A DNA stretch of 64,000 nucleotides from Spirochaetes bacterium GWE1_32_154. GTDB taxonomy: Bacteria; Spirochaetota; GWE2-31-10. The notes beneath the pieces are model-generated. The model searched no databases and had not been told where the DNA came from. It worked only from the letters and a program-made list of their open reading frames with translations. Both the position numbers and the translations under genes were made by a program. Positions 2,603 to 29,163 of this stretch are shown piece after piece. Positions within the stretch are counted from its first letter, which is position 1. Each line of letters opens with the position of its first letter. The stretch is from positions 62,001 to 126,000 of the forward strand of contig MIAY01000039.1 of assembly GCA_001829315.1 (NCBI GenBank). Reading direction: 5' to 3'.

Positions 2603-2719
2603 TCTTTTTTCAGGGTAGTACGTGGTTGAAGATTAATGAGCCATAGATGTGGTGAGCTATTTTAATTTATGTTTATTGGCGTTTTATTATTTTAGAGGTG
2701 TCCTTAATCATATTAGATT

Positions 2720-3634
2720 TCAGCTATCAACACCCTCGATTAGCCGTATTACATCTGTTTCACAAAGCCCTGTATATTTAACAATCTGTGCAACTGTAAA
2801 ACCGTCAGAATGCATACTTTTTGCATTTTGTTTTGCTTTTTCAAGATTAAGTTGTTTCTCTTTCTGAATACCGATTATTTCTCCCTTTTCAAAACCTGTC
2901 CTGTGTGCATGATTTAAAGAACTGACTTTTTCATGGAGTGACTTTTGTCGTTGTTCATAAAGATATCTTTCTTCTTTATCATGGCTTAATACATTAAGCT
3001 GATTGATTGCTTTTTTTATTTCCGGTATTTGTTCTGCAATCATAGAAACCTCCCTATCTTCAGGATTCTCAATAAATAATAACCAGTCTCTTAACAGTAC
3101 ATTGGGTACTATGCCCTCTGTTCTAAGTTTTGGTAATTCCAAAAAGTGAATTTGAGCCACATTTGTTAATACCTCATGGGTGTCAATTTCTTTAAACATA
3201 AAAGTATTATGAACTCTTTTATTCTGAACTACTATAAAATTCACTATATTAATAGTAATAGATTTTTTTAATTTTGTATAGTCATCACCTTCAAAAATCT
3301 GTTCTTCTATTAGTTTTGACAGATAGTAAACCGTTCTCTTTACCATATCATTGTTATTAGCAATCTGTATCTCGATGTCAATTATTGTATTATCATTTGC
3401 TTTAGCACGAACATCAAGTATTGAGTATTTATCATCAATAGATTTTTTTTCAATATTAGGGTTTAATATAATGACAGAGATAATTCTGTCATTATCTGTA
3501 TATCCTAAGACTGCATTTAAGAAACTTATTAAAATTTCCGGCATTTCCGGATTACCGAATATCCTTTTGAATACAAAGTCAACTTTAGGACTCATTAGTG
3601 ATACTTTTTTAGTATCTTCGCTATTTTTAATCAT
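2720..3634 (-). CDS. Rpn family PD-(D/E)XK nuclease / putative transposase
   Basis: About 304 residues. The opening MSPKVDFVFKRIFGNPEMPEILISFLNAVL is the signature of the PDDEXK_2 (Rpn, recombination-promoting nuclease) family. The catalytic core is visible as LDVRAKANDNTIIDIEIQI, supplying the Asp and the ExQ of the PD-(D/E)XK fold. A C-terminal segment (GFTVAQIVKYTGLCETDVIRLI) looks like the short helical tail common in this family. Family members are DNA endonucleases that stimulate RecA-independent recombination and often occur in many copies. An ATG four codons earlier (3646) is possible, but its bases form the GGAGG ribosome-binding site for the ATG at 3634, so the later start is preferred. 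The gene stands alone with repeat-like sequence downstream. The family call is secure; activity is not shown. Confidence 0.9.
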   Translation of the reverse strand: MIKNSEDTKKVSLMSPKVDFVFKRIFGNPEMPEILISFLNAVLGYTDNDRIISVIILNPNIEKKSIDDKYSILDVRAKANDNTIIDIEIQIANNNDMVKRTVYYLSKLIEEQIFEGDDYTKLKKSITINIVNFIVVQNKRVHNTFMFKEIDTHEVLTNVAQIHFLELPKLRTEGIVPNVLLRDWLLFIENPEDREVSMIAEQIPEIKKAINQLNVLSHDKEERYLYEQRQKSLHEKVSSLNHAHRTGFEKGEIIGIQKEKQLNLEKAKQNAKSMHSDGFTVAQIVKYTGLCETDVIRLIEGVDS

Positions 3635-3809
3635 AACATCCTCCATATATATTAAATGAAGAAAAAGTTATTTTTCATTAAGGGGTGACGGTTTTTTTAC
3701 AATTTATCTATGGGTTAAGGATTTAATGAGATGATGTTTTCGATAATTCAAAAACACAATGTTTCCCATACTGAGCGTAAACATCGCATCCTTTTTCGGT
3801 TTTTGATAT

Positions 3810-16115: not shown

Positions 16116-16724
16116 TTACTTTGTTTTTTCTTCAGGAATCATTTTTAGTTGAAAAATAATACCGCAAATGGCAAGAATTGCAACAATAAAAAGTATAAGA
16201 TAGTATAAATCATTAGATTTTTCTAATGCATTAAAATACTTGATAAATGAACTGTTGCCAAATTTTAAATTGTAAATTAAAAACCCAACTCCATTTATCA
16301 TACAAAAACTGCCGATTATCGCTGTAGTTACAACAATCATTAATCGTTGAAAAATAAGCGAAAGAATACCGCCTGCTAAACATATTCCGATTAAGATTAA
16401 AATATTTTCTGTAATGTGAAGTCGCAAACCGGCAAAGTTTAATATAAAAAGAGTTGCTAATGCACCTGACATGAAAATACCCGCGTAATAGAATATAATA
16501 ATCAATATCCCCAGTATTATTCCAATTGCAATGGCTACAATGATAAGAACATTTTTATCATTTATAAAATTTGCCCCGTACGTAATTACAAGATAAATTC
16601 CGGTGAAAAAACCAAGTAATACGAGTGTAAATCTAAATACACCATACCCCCAGAAACAGCAGAAAATACCAAAACCTGTAATAATTAATGGAATGAGTAA
16701 AAAATATAATTCAGAAATATTCAT
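16116..16724 (-). CDS. Polytopic membrane protein (DUF4203/TMEM198-like), 202 aa
   Basis: Roughly seven hydrophobic helices run through the whole protein, with glycine-rich segments CCFWGYGVFRFTLVLLGFFTGIYLVITYG and AIAIGIILGILIIIFYYAGIFMSGALATLF. This is reminiscent of the DUF4203 family, which has no established biochemical role. A short cytoplasmic tail ends MIPEEKTK. AGGAG precedes the ATG. The gene is single; the signalling block lies divergently upstream. The membrane location is clear; the family assignment is tentative. Confidence 0.6.
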   Translation of the reverse strand: MNISELYFLLIPLIITGFGIFCCFWGYGVFRFTLVLLGFFTGIYLVITYGANFINDKNVLIIVAIAIGIILGILIIIFYYAGIFMSGALATLFILNFAGLRLHITENILILIGICLAGGILSLIFQRLMIVVTTAIIGSFCMINGVGFLIYNLKFGNSSFIKYFNALEKSNDLYYLILFIVAILAICGIIFQLKMIPEEKTK

Positions 16725-16908: not shown

Positions 16909-18027
16909 ATGTTTAATGAAATTAGTATGGAATTTAATGGAATGAAAATCCTGATTGTTGATGATGATACTAATTCTTTAGTTTTAATAAATCATATATT
17001 GAAAGAAAGGTATATTGTTGATATAGTGAATGATTCACGATTAGTCATGGAAAAACTGACCGTTTATCGCCCTGATCTTATTCTTATGGATATTATGATG
17101 CCGGGGATAAGTGGTCTTGATTTATGCAGGCAGTTACAGGAACATCCTGAATATTATACGATTCCTGTTATTCTTATTACGGCAAAATCTGAAGAAACTG
17201 ATGTGTTTAATGGTCTTGAGGCCGGTGCGATTGATTATATTAAAAAGCCATTTTCAGAGCTTGAGTTAATCGCACGAATTAACGCAGCGTTAAAAACTGA
17301 GATTTATATTCGTAAGCTAAAAATGTTAATTAAATTAAAAGACAGTTTTTTATCGATGGTAAGCCATGACATAAAAACACCACTTACAGCAATTATGGGT
17401 TTTTCGGAGTTGTTATTGGAAGAACGGGTGGGTGGCAATTTAAATGAAAAACAAAAAAGAATTATCAGTCAGATTTTAGACTCTGCTAATCATCAGAATA
17501 GAATTATAAAAGATTTATTAAACTATTCAATTCTCGAATCAGGAAATATGAAGTTATTTATTGATTCATTTAAACTCAAAAGTATTATAAATAAGTCAAT
17601 CGCAGAAGTTAGTTTTGTACTGGAAGAGAAACAATTACAAGTCATTGTTGATGTTGATGATTTATTTGAAATTGAATGTGATATGGACAGAATAATACAG
17701 GTACTTACTAATTTACTGGCCAATGCAGTTAAATTTACCCCAAAGGGTGGCATTATTGAACTTGGTGCGACAAAAAATGATTTATATGCTGAGGTTTTTG
17801 TGAAAGACTCAGGCATTGGCATCCCGAAAGAAAATATTCAAAAAATTTTTGATGAGTATGAGTTATTTACAACAAGAGGAACTTCAGGTGAAAAGGGAAC
17901 CGGTCTGGGTGTGAATATCTGTAATCGTATTATTAAAGAACATGGCGGAACGATGTTTGTTCAAAGTGAAGAAGGTAAAGGCACAACTTTCTTTTTTACT
18001 CTGCCGTATAATTCAAAAAGCAAATAG
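16909..18027 (+). CDS. REC-HisKA-HATPase hybrid sensor kinase (soluble)
   Basis: 372 residues, no membrane segment. An N-terminal receiver domain (MKILIVDDDTNS; phosphoacceptor Asp near residue 60 in LILMDIMMPG; Lys in YIKKPFSE) is followed directly by a histidine kinase: the H-box is FLSMVSHDIKTPLTAIMGFSELL (His near 152), the N-box NLLANAVKFTP, then DSGIGIP and GTGLGVNICNRI. Receiver-first kinases are usually switched by phosphorylation from another kinase. The gene is followed nine bases later by a LytS-type kinase and then a LytTR regulator, suggesting one signalling operon. GGAG precedes the ATG. The domain order is seen; the partners are inferred. Confidence 0.93.
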   Translation: MFNEISMEFNGMKILIVDDDTNSLVLINHILKERYIVDIVNDSRLVMEKLTVYRPDLILMDIMMPGISGLDLCRQLQEHPEYYTIPVILITAKSEETDVFNGLEAGAIDYIKKPFSELELIARINAALKTEIYIRKLKMLIKLKDSFLSMVSHDIKTPLTAIMGFSELLLEERVGGNLNEKQKRIISQILDSANHQNRIIKDLLNYSILESGNMKLFIDSFKLKSIINKSIAEVSFVLEEKQLQVIVDVDDLFEIECDMDRIIQVLTNLLANAVKFTPKGGIIELGATKNDLYAEVFVKDSGIGIPKENIQKIFDEYELFTTRGTSGEKGTGLGVNICNRIIKEHGGTMFVQSEEGKGTTFFFTLPYNSKSK

Positions 18028-18036
18028 GCGTTCTTG

Positions 18037-19065
18037 ATGAATCTAAAAAAGCCGTTTACCTATGTTCTTTCTATTTTTCTTCTTCTTGGTATGGTTATTT
18101 TGTTCTCAGGCGTTTTTGTAAGCGTTATTGTCGGTTTATTAATAGAAGATTTTTCGTATGAATTAATGAGAGTTTCAATTATTAATTCTTTATTTTTTGC
18201 TTTGGGTATTGTTTTAAATGTAGTGCTTCTTTCGCTTGTGTTTGCTAAAACGCATATAGTTAAAACATTAATTATTAATACATTAGTCACAATCGGGTTA
18301 CTGATTATTGATTATTTTTATCTTTTATTTACCGAACCGGTATTTTTAATCGTGTATCAGAATGTTTTTTATCTGTATATGTTAATTAATTTTGCTTTTA
18401 TACAAACAATTTCATTGGTGATGACAATTTTTATGATGATGAGTAATGAGATTATAATGAAAGATCAGGCAATTGAGATGGAAAAAAGACATTTTATTGA
18501 AGCAAAACTTGAACAACTTACAGAAAGAATTAATCCCCATTTTTTATTTAATTCACTTAATACTGCGATTGCTTTATTACCACACAAAGATAAAGCAGAA
18601 GATTTTCTTACAAATTTATCTGAACTTCTCCGGTACAATGTTACGATAAGCGGGAAGAAAAATCATACGATACGGGATGAAATTGAATATGTTAAGAAAT
18701 TTCTCTATATCCAGAAAATCAGGTTTGAAGATAGACTTGAATATCAAATAATCGGAACAAGTGAATATATTATTCCCCCAATGATTATTCAGATCCTCGT
18801 TGAAAATTCAATTAAACATACTATTAATTTTTCAAATTCATTACGAATAGATGTGATAGTAAGTGAAAATAATGACACAATCAGCATTGAAGTAAAAGAT
18901 TCATATCGTTTGTTACGAAATGACATGATTGGTAAAGGTTCCGGCTTACAAAACTGTTCCACAAGAGTAATATTAGCTGGAGGTTCTTTTATAATTGAAA
19001 ACGGTGGTGTTCGTATGATTTTTTCTAAAAGCGGATACAATCAAATTGTCAGGAGCCACGAGTGA
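18037..19065 (+). CDS. LytS-type sensor histidine kinase
   Basis: About 342 residues. Four membrane segments occupy roughly the first 140 residues with little exposed sensor domain. The His_kinase (LytS/YehU) domain follows: LEQLTERINPHFLFNSLNTAIALL carries the phosphoacceptor His in the NPHFLFN motif, and an HATPase_c domain contains IIPPMIIQILVENSIKHT and GKGSGLQNCSTR. It phosphorylates a LytTR regulator, encoded by the next gene with which it overlaps by four bases. The ATG at 18037 is preferred to the in-frame TTG one codon earlier. The ribosome-binding site is weak (AGG near 18026), consistent with coupling to the upstream kinase gene. Confidence 0.93.
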   Translation: MNLKKPFTYVLSIFLLLGMVILFSGVFVSVIVGLLIEDFSYELMRVSIINSLFFALGIVLNVVLLSLVFAKTHIVKTLIINTLVTIGLLIIDYFYLLFTEPVFLIVYQNVFYLYMLINFAFIQTISLVMTIFMMMSNEIIMKDQAIEMEKRHFIEAKLEQLTERINPHFLFNSLNTAIALLPHKDKAEDFLTNLSELLRYNVTISGKKNHTIRDEIEYVKKFLYIQKIRFEDRLEYQIIGTSEYIIPPMIIQILVENSIKHTINFSNSLRIDVIVSENNDTISIEVKDSYRLLRNDMIGKGSGLQNCSTRVILAGGSFIIENGGVRMIFSKSGYNQIVRSHE

Positions 19066-19766
19066 TTAATGTTTTAATAGCTGACGATGAACGTTTATCA
19101 AGGGTCCGATTAAAAGAGTTATTTCAAAATAGAAAAGATTTTTTCATACAATATGAAGCGGTTAATGGCGATGAAGTTTATACTGTTCTTGCGCATAAAA
19201 AAATTGATGTGGTATTTCTTGATATAAATATGCCGGGAAAATCTGTTTTTGAGTCTTTGCGCGAACTGAAGTTTGAAGGAATGATAGTGTTTCAGACGGC
19301 ATATAGTGAATTTGCCGTAAAAGCATTTGATGTTGATGCAGTTGATTATCTGTTGAAACCTTATAGTAAAGATCGATTTAGTATATGTATCGAAAAGATA
19401 ATTTCAAAATTTAATGAAAAACAAAATAAAAATAATAATGCGGTAATTGTATTAAAACAGCAAGACAATACTAAGATTGTCAGAATCTCTGATATCGTTT
19501 ATCTTACAATGGGAAATAGTATTATAACCATCAAGCTGAAAGATAAGACTACTCTTTTTTCAGATAAAACCCTTACCTATTTTGAATCACTTCTACCGGA
19601 ATGTGCTTTTTTCAGGACTTCAAGGAACGCATTGATAAATATAAAATGTATAGTATCGTTTCATAAAAATTGCAGTGGTGTCAATTATATTGAAATGAAT
19701 AATGGCGAACGAATAGAATTATCCCGCAGAAGAGTAAAAGATTTAAAGAGTCTGATTGATTTCTGA
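19062..19766 (+). CDS. LytTR-family response regulator
   Basis: 234 residues. The receiver domain (INVLIADDERLSRVRLKELF; phosphoacceptor Asp in VVFLDINMPGKSVF; conserved Lys in DYLLKPYSKDRF) is followed by a C-terminal LytTR DNA-binding domain (IVRISDIVYLTMGNSIITIKLKDKTTLFSDKTL to ELSRRRVKDLKSLIDF). LytTR proteins bind pairs of short direct repeats two helical turns apart. The GTG start overlaps the kinase stop codon (GTGA) and has AGGAG upstream, indicating translational coupling. A matching 21-bp-period direct repeat lies immediately downstream, before the bactofilin-like gene, the likely target. Confidence 0.95.
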   Translation: MINVLIADDERLSRVRLKELFQNRKDFFIQYEAVNGDEVYTVLAHKKIDVVFLDINMPGKSVFESLRELKFEGMIVFQTAYSEFAVKAFDVDAVDYLLKPYSKDRFSICIEKIISKFNEKQNKNNNAVIVLKQQDNTKIVRISDIVYLTMGNSIITIKLKDKTTLFSDKTLTYFESLLPECAFFRTSRNALINIKCIVSFHKNCSGVNYIEMNNGERIELSRRRVKDLKSLIDF

Positions 19767-19795
19767 CCACTCACAGTAATAAAGTTACCACTCAG
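19766..19795 (+). promoter_or_regulatory. Candidate LytTR operator (direct repeat, 21-bp period)
   Basis: ACCACTCAC at 19766 and ACCACTCAG at 19787 are direct repeats exactly 21 bp apart (9 + 12 + 9), the geometry used by LytTR regulators such as AgrA. The pair lies between the LytTR gene and the bactofilin-like gene and ends just before the -35 region. Confidence 0.5.
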
Positions 19796-19797
19796 AT

Positions 19798-19826
19798 TTT
19801 TTATTCAGAATTTTAATATTTATAAT
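19798..19826 (+). promoter_or_regulatory. Candidate activator-dependent promoter
   Basis: A consensus TATAAT at 19821-19826 has only a poor -35 (TTTTTA at 19798-19803) at 17-bp spacing, immediately after the direct repeats. This layout suits activation by a regulator bound next to RNA polymerase. Confidence 0.45.
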
Positions 19827-19862
19827 GTAAATAGTAAGTATATTATTTAAAGGAGTTTAATT

Positions 19863-20969
19863 ATGAAACGATTTTTGGTTTTTTTAACGCTTTTGACCGG
19901 TATTTTTTATGTCAGTAGTATAGAAATGAAAATTGGTAAAGATGAAAAAGTTACATTTTCAGAAAATCTGAGTACTGATTATTTATTTATGGGTGAATCA
20001 TTAGAATTTTATGGTTCAACAAAAGATTTATTTTTTTTTGGTAAATCATTACAATTTAATGGTAATACTGAAAGTTCTTTAATCAGTTTTGGTGAAGACC
20101 TTGAATTACAAGGTGTCGTTGGAAATGATATAATTTCAGCAGCTGATAATCTTACGATATCAGGAAATGTATATGGAACTGTTTTTGCAGCAGCAAATAT
20201 TGTAACTGTTTCAAAAGAAAGTGTTATTGACGGCAGTATTTTTGCTACAGGGAAAAAAGTAATCATTGATGGAATTGTAAATGGTGATGTGTATTGTGCA
20301 AGTGGCAGACTTATTGTTAATGGTATAATAAATGGTGATGTGAAACTGGCTACAGGAATGGTAAACATTAATGAAACAGGGATGGTTAATGGAAATCTTC
20401 ATTATTATTCAAAAGATAAAATAACAGAATCAGAAGCAACCCGAATTACCGGCGAAGTTGAATTTAAAGAAAAATCAATAACTCATAGTAAAACATCATT
20501 TAAAAAAGGTATGTTTATTGTAGCAAAAATATTCAGTTTATTTATTTTATTATCTTTCGTTATTGGTGGAATGTTACTTTTATTGATACCTTTTATGAAA
20601 AATGTAAAGGTTTCAACCCCAAAAGAGTTTTTTGAAACATTTGTCTGGGGGTTAATACCATTTTTCATATATCCTGTAGCCGTAGTTGTTTTACTGTCAT
20701 TAGTGATTACAATACCGCTGGCCTTTGGGTTAATGTTAGCCGGGTTACCACTATTATTTTTAACTCAAGTTATCGGTGTAACTTTATTTGGTGAAATGTT
20801 ATTTAAAGTTTTTAAATGGAATGAAAAAAATAGATTTATATACTTCTTATTTGGTTTAGTATTTTACATTTTTCTTTCTGTGATACCTTTTGTCAGCCAT
20901 TTGTCAGTTGTGTTTTTTTCAAGTGCAGGTTGGGGTAAAATTTTGAAAAGTATAGCTGATAAAAAATAA
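19863..20969 (+). CDS. Secreted, membrane-anchored bactofilin-like (polymer-forming) protein
   Basis: 368 residues. A signal peptide (KRFLVFLTLLTGIFYVSS) is followed by about 190 residues of short right-handed beta-helix rungs typical of bactofilin-like proteins (FGKSLQFNG, FGEDLELQGVVGNDIISAADNLTISGNVYGTVFAAANIVTV, DGIVNGDVYCASGRLIVNGIINGDVKLATGMVNI). From about residue 215 there are four hydrophobic helices. The helix would thus lie outside the cytoplasmic membrane, unlike classic cytoplasmic bactofilins. AAAGGAG precedes the ATG. The upstream direct repeat suggests control by the LytTR protein encoded just before. Its role is unknown, possibly envelope structure or stress. Confidence 0.8.
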   Translation: MKRFLVFLTLLTGIFYVSSIEMKIGKDEKVTFSENLSTDYLFMGESLEFYGSTKDLFFFGKSLQFNGNTESSLISFGEDLELQGVVGNDIISAADNLTISGNVYGTVFAAANIVTVSKESVIDGSIFATGKKVIIDGIVNGDVYCASGRLIVNGIINGDVKLATGMVNINETGMVNGNLHYYSKDKITESEATRITGEVEFKEKSITHSKTSFKKGMFIVAKIFSLFILLSFVIGGMLLLLIPFMKNVKVSTPKEFFETFVWGLIPFFIYPVAVVVLLSLVITIPLAFGLMLAGLPLLFLTQVIGVTLFGEMLFKVFKWNEKNRFIYFLFGLVFYIFLSVIPFVSHLSVVFFSSAGWGKILKSIADKK

Positions 20970-20970
20970 A

Positions 20971-21099
20971 TTGTAGAGTTTCTTGCAAAAATACTCTTTT
21001 TATCTCGAATTTTTGCAAGAAGCTACCTCTAACGCAATTATATTGCGTATTGCCGTAAGCAAAATCAAGTACTCTTGATTTTTGCAAGAGGCTCTGTAG
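20971..21099. repeat. Composite dispersed palindrome (copy C)
   Basis: The first hairpin (20973-21026) has arms ending TCTTGCAAAAA and TTTTTGCAAGA around a TACTCTTTTTATCTCGAA loop. A central palindrome ACGCAAT-TAT-ATTGCGT lies at 21032-21048. The second hairpin (about 21058-21085) has arms AATCAAG and CTTGATT extended by GCAAA/TTTGC. The outer ends are also imperfect inverted repeats (TAGAGTTTCTTGCAAAAA against GAGGCTCTTGCAAAAAT). It lies between the bactofilin-like gene and that gene's likely terminator. Confidence 0.8.
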
Positions 21100-21110
21100 T
21101 ATTATTATGA

Positions 21111-21141
21111 AGTCGGGAACTTGTTTTTCCGGCTTTTTTTT
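21111..21141 (+). terminator. Rho-independent terminator
   Basis: AGTCGGGA and TTCCGGCT form an eight-pair stem with two G-U wobbles, followed by a run of eight T. It most likely serves the bactofilin-like gene, from which it is separated by repeat copy C. Confidence 0.75.
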
Positions 21142-27432: not shown

Positions 27433-29163
27433 ATGAATTTTTGTAAAAAATCAATCATGCTTTTTGTAAAGATACAAATATTGTTTTTATTATTAATAAT
27501 ACCATCTTGTGTAACAACTAAATTTGGTGTTTTTAATGATGATTTAATATTAAAATCAAGTGAAAGTAATAATGTATTAAAAGAAATAAATATACCATAT
27601 AGTTCGTTTATTCATGGTATTCCGGTTAAGGGGGACAAGGTCGGGATTTTGGGGACTGCCGTATCACCTGATAATTCAACACTTTTTGTTGTTATTAATT
27701 TTCCGAAATTTGCAATTCTATCAACAAAAGATGATGGCGTTACATTTCAATCTTCAATTTTTGATACAAGTTATTTTAATTCTGATAGTGATGAAGATGA
27801 ACAAAATCGCGGGTATAAAACAAAAGTACGAAAAGATATTCGGGTCAGGTCTGCATTTAATAATAATAATGTTGTTTTATCTGTGGGGCCATTTTTATTT
27901 ATTAGTTTGGATTCCGGTAAAACGTTTAAAAAAAAGACATTGTTTTACGATCTTGATCGTTCATTTATCAGGGATTTGCTTATCGATGAAAATGGCAGGA
28001 TTTATGCATTTACTGATAATAGAATTGCGTATACTGATAATCTCGGTAAAAAGTGGAAGCGAATTACTGTTGAAACAGAAAAAATTAAAAATAAAAATAT
28101 GCAATATGTAGATAGTGTATTATATAATAATGTTCCAAATGTATCATATCTTGATCGTTCAATGTTTCATACTGATTATTTTATAAAAAAAAATCCATTA
28201 CCTTCCGGACATAGTGCTGATTATAACGAAAGTGGTGTTTTTATTTTAGATAATGATGTTTTAGTAAAAACGAATGTTACTATGCCATTGGGGTTGTTCG
28301 TTGAAAATAAAGTATTGTATGGTTTTAATGTTTTTAATACCAAATTAAAGTTATTGCAGCTTTCTGATGATTTTAAAAAAACTAATTTCTATACAAACGG
28401 TAATCTTGCCGGCAGTAAAAATGCGGTACAATATTTTATAGATAGTATAAAAAAAGATTATTTCATTCTCGATTCGTATGCACAATTTCAAAGAATTTAT
28501 GATTTGACTTCAGATACCATAGAATCACTTGCAATTTCACCATCATTATTAAATCCTGTATTGAAGAAAAGTAAAAATATTAATTCAATACTAAGAAATA
28601 ATTTTTCAGGAATGAAAAGTAGAGATTTTAATTTTAACTGGGATCCTGAAAATTTAGTATATGAATATTCAGATGGTTTTCTTGATTCGTTATACTATTC
28701 TATATTTGATGTTAATGGTGATTTTTATGAAATTAAACCATCAATTTTTTTTATTTCTACCATAACGGAAGAAATAATTTCTAATAAATACAAAGAAGAT
28801 ACTACTGCGATGATACTGAGAAAAAAATCTGCGTGGCAGAATATTGACGTGAGTAAAAATGTTCCTTTTGAAATCAAAATTTCTGCAAATGCAGTTTCAA
28901 TGGCGTTATCCGAAAAACTTATTACAACTGTAGTTAATCCTGAACTAAAAACAAGAAGTTCGTACTGGTATAAAAATATAGATAAAAAAAAGAGATTTAA
29001 ACTGGAATTTGTGATAGGAAATGAAGAAAAAAATGATTTGTTATACTATCCGTCAGATATAGCATTATATAATGATGGAATCCTAATTGAAATTACATTC
29101 TATAATGATGTAATAAGTTATCGTGAATTGTATAAAATACCATCTTTGATAAAAAATAATTAA
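27433..29163 (+). CDS. Lipoprotein with BNR/Asp-box-like beta-propeller repeats
   Basis: 576 residues with a lipoprotein signal (VKIQILFLLLIIPSCVTT). The N-terminal half has repeats of the Asp-box kind seen in sialidases and sortilin-type propellers: FAILSTKDDGVTFQ, FLFISLDSGKTFKK, RIAYTDNLGKKWKR. These mark propeller blades, not a particular activity. The C-terminal half is less clear. AAGGT precedes the ATG. No enzyme residues could be assigned, so it is called a surface or periplasmic propeller lipoprotein. It is not obviously in an operon, since about 100 bp separate it from the nucleotidyltransferase gene. Confidence 0.65.
   Translation: MNFCKKSIMLFVKIQILFLLLIIPSCVTTKFGVFNDDLILKSSESNNVLKEINIPYSSFIHGIPVKGDKVGILGTAVSPDNSTLFVVINFPKFAILSTKDDGVTFQSSIFDTSYFNSDSDEDEQNRGYKTKVRKDIRVRSAFNNNNVVLSVGPFLFISLDSGKTFKKKTLFYDLDRSFIRDLLIDENGRIYAFTDNRIAYTDNLGKKWKRITVETEKIKNKNMQYVDSVLYNNVPNVSYLDRSMFHTDYFIKKNPLPSGHSADYNESGVFILDNDVLVKTNVTMPLGLFVENKVLYGFNVFNTKLKLLQLSDDFKKTNFYTNGNLAGSKNAVQYFIDSIKKDYFILDSYAQFQRIYDLTSDTIESLAISPSLLNPVLKKSKNINSILRNNFSGMKSRDFNFNWDPENLVYEYSDGFLDSLYYSIFDVNGDFYEIKPSIFFISTITEEIISNKYKEDTTAMILRKKSAWQNIDVSKNVPFEIKISANAVSMALSEKLITTVVNPELKTRSSYWYKNIDKKKRFKLEFVIGNEEKNDLLYYPSDIALYNDGILIEITFYNDVISYRELYKIPSLIKNN

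Follow-up and report, generated by a model that had tools for sequence, protein, structure and literature searches.

A lytS-lytTR-bac module with a BtsR-type repeat that probably controls an exported bactofilin-fold protein in a spirochaete lineage

Bactofilins are usually small cytoplasmic proteins without a signal peptide. How would a cell come to keep such a fold on the far side of its membrane, and what would tell it when to do so? The question is raised by bac, a gene in the 64,000-nucleotide window analysed here (G000:C39:62001-126000, the stretch at positions 62,001-126,000 of contig MIAY01000039.1 of Spirochaetes bacterium GWE1_32_154; genome G000, 4.03 Mb in 43 contigs, 97.6% complete). 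It stands last in a row of four plus-strand open reading frames (ORFs; 16909-18027, 18034-19065, 19062-19766 and 19863-20969) that an earlier note, made from the letters alone, had read as one signalling module controlling a polymer-forming protein; the ORF list and Pfam matches confirm all four genes. Three of them, lytS, lytTR and bac, probably form a dedicated switch that activates an exported, inner-membrane-anchored beta-helix protein. Control of bac by the LytTR regulator is likely because the genes show conserved linkage and matching presence and absence, and because a BtsR-type operator lies before bac; the first kinase of the row falls outside the module.

Three genes that travel together

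The LytS-type sensor kinase (18034..19065, + strand) matches His_kinase PF06580 at 7.2e-23, carries the phosphoacceptor H169 and has four hydropathy peaks with no large outside domain. Pfam detects no sensor domain in it, and 5TMR_LYT gives no match up to E 0.1 while hydropathy gives four peaks. Its gene overlaps by 4 nt that of a receiver-LytTR response regulator with phosphoacceptor D54 (19062..19766, + strand; Response_reg 3.8e-17, LytTR 1.9e-17). A PF06580 kinase beside a receiver-LytTR regulator, both with their phosphoacceptors, defines a LytS/LytTR two-component pair, and the four-segment kinase and overlapping regulator of the earlier note stand as described. The closest NCBIfam model for the regulator is BtsR, at 124.8 bits, below that model's cut-off of 246. 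One LytTR-domain gene each was found in G000 and the related genomes G004 and G006, and two in G001, where the second belongs to a BtsSR/BtsT-like locus on another contig (C208; L047 1-3419); there a LytS-like kinase gene is followed by genes for a LytTR regulator and for a transporter of the CstA family. No ACCRYTYA repeats were seen before that cstA.

The order lytS-lytTR-bac is kept in five loci, namely the window, G001:C294, G004:C81, L061 and L062. In G006 the trio is split, with bac on contig C206 and lytS-lytTR on C177 near the contig end. Among 60 relatives, full-length close Bac homologues (E<1e-70) were found in G001, which has two copies, and in G004 and G006, and LytS relatives at E<1e-50 occur in the same genomes; at E 0.001 Bac matches 11 of the 60, the rest being weaker or partial. 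An alignment search of 392 genomes of the phylum finds both subfamilies, Bac at E<1e-150 and LytS at E<1e-130, in G000, G001, G004 and G006 and in no other genome, and the next-best matches fall to 2.7e-45 for Bac and 4.5e-38 for LytS. Within the order (nine genomes, G000-G008), four genomes have both subfamilies and five have neither (p=0.008, kinship ignored). A first-pass scan of genome contigs with a single sequence as query gave no match. Those close relatives that carry names are Spirochaetes metagenome-assembled genomes.

The conserved module is thus lytS, lytTR and bac. The soluble receiver-HisKA-HATPase kinase that opens the row (16909..18027, + strand; Response_reg 3.9e-28, HisKA 6.6e-20, HATPase_c 1.4e-27) is a local neighbour: it is missing 5' of lytS in G001, G004, G006 and L062, and L061, with 417 nt of upstream sequence, is uninformative. 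Conservation of all four genes together, as the earlier note had it, therefore fails, since no relative has this kinase upstream of lytS, and a four-gene module was rejected. The kinase's best relative (48%) lies in G006 on C220, a different contig from lytS-lytTR, between a Fe-hydrogenase/MCP-domain protein and a DUF4097 'toastrack' protein (L049). In L062 a sigma-70-family factor gene (2816-3373) sits immediately upstream of the trio.

A direct repeat in front of bac

What links the regulator to bac beyond gene order? The gap between lytTR and bac, a region that the earlier note omitted and where the result is new, holds the exact direct repeat ACCACTCA-N13-ACCACTCA. Box 1 lies at 19766..19773 and box 2 at 19787..19794, both on the + strand, 21 bp apart. 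It agrees at 16 of 16 positions with the BtsR-type pattern ACCRCTYA-N13-ACCRCTYA, which was later found to agree with the E. coli oligonucleotide given in PMC4847170. That article gives the YehT/BtsR site in the E. coli yjiY fragment as GCCGCTCA, ACCGCTTA and ACCACTCA, for which we compute spacings of 20 and 21 bp, and describes LytTR sites as pairs of 9-11-nt repeats separated by 11-13 nt.

Similar boxes precede bac in the relatives: GCCATTCA/ACCACTCA in G006, where another 21 bp upstream there is a degenerate third copy; GCCGCTCA/ACCGTTCA/ACCAGTCA in L061; ACCATTCA/ACCGCTCA in L062; ACCGCTTA/GCCGCTCA, then ACCGTTTA at 20 bp, in G004; and ACCATTCA/ACCAGTTA in G001:C294. Altogether six of the seven bac genes have a period-21 pair scoring 14-16 of 16, including the G006 gene that is unlinked to the regulator, and in five loci 68-78 nt separate the end of the last box from the start codon. 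Scoring covered 200 nt upstream; for both G001 copies this was extended to 400 nt, since C294 was by then known to have a more distant site. Shuffles, made by a simple random-walk script rather than an exact dinucleotide sampler, reached the box-pair scores at most once in 2000, and in none of 1000 for G001:C294. A motif-free measure of self-similarity over the seven bac regions also ranks period 21 top among periods 10-40 (sum 43; others 30-38). Control regions stay at or below 12 of 16, both for 52 other upstream regions in the window and for nine distant Bac homologues, where BtsR-type boxes are absent. The window set comprised 53 upstream regions of 55 ORFs of at least 120 aa, after dropping 27614-28111 (inside another ORF) and 36-2426 (near the window start); the homologue set comprised nine of 11 loci, L103 and L109 being left out. 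No box pair precedes the receiver-first kinase.

Directly after box 2 comes a weak candidate -35 element, TTTTTA (19798-19803, + strand), followed by a candidate -10 hexamer, TATAAT (19821..19826, + strand). Both were read from the sequence; a consensus promoter scan, whose rule requires a better -35, does not list them.

How far does the operator extend through the genomes? A tighter pattern, RCCRNTYA-N13-RCCRNTYA with zero mismatches, was written after the sites had been seen, which makes its count dependent on them: it gives 9, 4, 3 and 7 matches in G000, G001, G004 and G006 (total 23), against 1, 4, 0 and 0 (total 5) for the reversed pattern. Seven of the 23 are intergenic, lying before bac in all four genomes, before a TolC gene in G001 and G006, and before a 99-aa ORF in G006 in which Pfam finds nothing. 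For G004 and for G000 (one of nine matches) the bac site is the sole intergenic match. A looser pattern allowing two mismatches and its reversed control occur at about the same rate (160 vs 139 in G000, with fewer matches than the control in G001 and G006), and a large regulon was rejected on these counts.

The two TolC genes with boxes are 40% identical and each heads one of two orthologous TolC-MFP-RND sets; the boxes end 117 nt before the TolC start in G001 and 67 nt before it in G006. In G000 and G004 the nearest scored TolC relatives lack the RND site, so an efflux regulon is not general, and the RND operon was set aside as a general target. The box pair is likewise absent from the nearest TolC relative examined in G005, a genome without the LytS and Bac subfamilies. 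In this survey six of 15 loci had no usable start and went unscored, and the ORF scored in G008 is MFP-like, not TolC. Each of the two RND operons (G001:C583, L140; G006:C87, L141) is preceded by an unusually long TetR-type gene, of 403 and 438 aa, with two TetR_N matches.

A bactofilin fold with a membrane domain

The protein Bac (19863..20969, + strand; 368 aa) is predicted to be an exported bactofilin-fold membrane protein. Hydropathy and aligned N-termini point to a signal-peptide-like segment at residues ~1-19 (19863..19919, + strand), followed by a beta-helix domain at ~20-203 (19920..20471, + strand) and a membrane domain at ~210-366 (20490..20960, + strand). The six other aligned proteins are 36-45% identical to Bac and share the whole layout, one row beginning inside the N-terminal segment, and the membrane-domain motif WGLIPFF is invariant in all seven. 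Pfam matches Bactofilin PF04519 at 1e-8 (35.8 bits against a gathering cut-off of 27.9), a threshold that the L060 (49.5 bits) and L062 (32.7 bits) proteins also pass; beyond this Bac matches FapA weakly.

An AlphaFold model from the seven-row alignment (mean predicted local distance difference test score, pLDDT, 83.7; predicted template-modelling score, pTM, 0.52) shows, as bactofilins do, a right-handed triangular beta-helix core roughly 100 residues long. With VIA-align, residues 79-182 superpose on the Thermus thermophilus bactofilin 6rib_A with Z 13.1 and a root-mean-square deviation (rmsd) of 1.4 over 96 residues, and the fit to BacA 2n3d gives Z 10.8 and rmsd 2.3 over 99. Many other beta-helices score equally or higher, over longer stretches and with larger rmsd. 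Accordingly the modelled beta-helix fold is secure, and assignment to the bactofilin family rests on Pfam together with the close 6rib_A fit.

Bac departs from the classical description in several ways. It has a signal-peptide-like N-terminus, extra rungs ahead of residue 79 and, at the C-terminus, a membrane domain, unlike the usual small cytoplasmic members of the family. Bactofilin scaffolds and membrane association are described in PMC13393453. The three other bactofilins of G000 are short, with open frames of 118-134 aa, and Bac stands apart from them. Its membrane domain follows the beta-helix closely and would cover the C-terminal end, an arrangement that may prevent classical end-to-end polymerisation there. 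The model gives this domain five helices of at least 16 residues; the membrane anchor of the earlier note is there, and its count of four helices is within error. Loops after helices 1 and 3 carry 2-6 K/R, and those after helices 2 and 4 none except one K in one row. Taken with the signal peptides, the positive-inside rule would put the beta-helix outside and the C-terminus inside. Export of the beta-helix, as first suggested, thus fits the sequences, but an outside-facing bactofilin fold is not special to this locus.

Distant proteins with a signal peptide, a bactofilin-like part and a membrane domain occur elsewhere in Spirochaetota (for example L099, L100, L104 and L106). They have the same layout and an alignable membrane domain, at 20-23% identity to Bac. 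Unlike Bac, they have no LytTR neighbour (0 of 11 loci, flanks of ~1.5 kb or less) and no BtsR-type boxes (0 of 9). The protein class is therefore not new; the proposed dedicated LytS/LytTR-bac circuit is. At L102 a response-regulator-like gene (2654-3304, read by eye) directly follows a distant Bac homologue.

Switch, partner or by-product

From the computed domains, linkage, matching presence and absence and operator, we infer binding, activation, topology in the cell, a stimulus and a physiological role along the following lines. The four-segment LytS would sense a signal at or in the inner membrane and phosphorylate the LytTR regulator, which would then bind the two 8-bp boxes, 21 bp apart on the same DNA face just 5' of the bac promoter. 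That promoter, with its good -10 and poor -35, would be activated by the bound regulator; activation rather than repression is suggested by boxes placed upstream of a weak -35 and by BtsR, which activates its target promoter according to PMC5552118. Bac would be exported via Sec, with the C-terminal helices as its inner-membrane anchor, the bactofilin-type beta-helix lying in the periplasm and the C-terminus inside. In some relatives the same regulator may also control a TolC-MFP-RND pump, and an exported membrane protein together with RND efflux makes the output probably an envelope stress or homeostasis response.

Several results weigh against this picture. The second G001 copy of bac (C479) has no convincing box pair (349 of 1000 shuffles reach its score), and the boxes of G001:C294 stand 250 nt from the start codon rather than 68-78. 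The spacing of -10 and -35 to the boxes is not conserved in relatives. In G001 the reversed pattern finds as many tight matches, four, as the real one, and the box pair is missing at the TolC relatives of G000 and G004. Boxes before lytS are found at none of six loci, so that kinase feedback is not visible at the DNA level, and autoregulation of lytS through the same boxes was dropped as unsupported. A Foldseek search with the whole Bac model returned no match below E 0.001. In L065, the G001:C294 locus, the longer stretch from the boxes to the start at 3720 includes a possible stem, its arms near CACCACGAAGT and ACTTCGTGGT; it may be a small insertion that has displaced the boxes.

Could Bac be a partner of the kinase as well as its output? 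LiaF-type membrane proteins act on kinases that have no sensor domain, and the LiaFSR arrangement, in which such a kinase and its regulator work with a membrane protein whose beta domain lies outside, resembles the present one, although here the kinase is of a different family (PF06580 only), the output domain is LytTR and Pfam finds no LiaF-family match in Bac. The membrane domain of Bac would contact LytS, the outside beta-helix would sense the envelope, and LytTR control would close a feedback loop. Four hydrophobic segments without a Pfam-known sensor domain in LytS, the predicted large outside domain and strongly conserved membrane domain of Bac, and a LytS-Bac partnership that is fixed in the sampled genomes all favour this idea, which sequence alone leaves inseparable from a plain switch. 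Yet the WG, FF and P positions of the WGLIPFF-like motif recur in several relatives without a LytTR neighbour, so a LytS partner is not needed to explain why the membrane domain is conserved, and bac is unlinked in G006; we consider the idea possible but rather unlikely. A fuller and slightly more speculative version is a one-purpose envelope-sensing circuit in which Bac is both output and membrane-side partner, its beta-helix monitoring or bracing the periplasm, its membrane domain tuning LytS, and the regulon able to recruit an RND pump; if true, it would mean that the bactofilin fold can serve in signalling beyond the cytoplasm.

That LytTR represses bac, or that the boxes mainly serve another gene and the bac link is a by-product of gene order, is improbable. 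The direction of regulation is unreadable from sequence and the variable -10 spacing would suit such an account, but the boxes are retained before the unlinked bac of G006, they stand upstream of the -35 in an activator position, and the closest described regulator, BtsR, is an activator according to PMC5552118. Least credible, and very improbable, is that Bac is an ordinary cytoplasmic bactofilin with hydrophobic ends by chance: the Pfam score above cut-off and the superposition on a bactofilin favour that reading, but all seven N-termini are signal-peptide-like (one row starting within the segment), K/R-rich loops alternate with uncharged ones in the manner expected of an outside beta-helix, and it is the other three bactofilins of G000 that have the classical size.

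The activating switch thus preferred here resembles E. coli BtsS/BtsR (YehU/YehT) in its PF06580 kinase, LytTR regulator and direct-repeat operator with a 20-21 bp period; its differences are that Pfam finds no sensor domain in the kinase and that its predicted target is Bac, not a CstA/BtsT-type pyruvate transporter. A BtsR-type DNA code is thereby present in a distant phylum with a different predicted target. Titles and abstract openings of the mainly non-subscription literature searched mention no bactofilin with a LytTR or two-component module, and apparently no function has been assigned there to exported bactofilin-like membrane proteins. A conserved dedicated regulator with a defined operator offers a handle on one: the operator predicts when bac is on and which genes accompany it, in two genomes those for efflux, and a reporter in a laboratory host could use it to search for the stimulus. 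Together, these results suggest a regulated envelope system in a spirochaete lineage that is directly testable.

Around the four genes, a divergent membrane protein with TM7S3/TM198 domains is encoded immediately upstream (16116-16724), and a PD-(D/E)XK family transposase gene lies at 2720-3646. In the stretch 3' of bac (20970-21140), arms like TTTTTGCAAGA recur, and positions 21109-21136 form a terminator-like stem.

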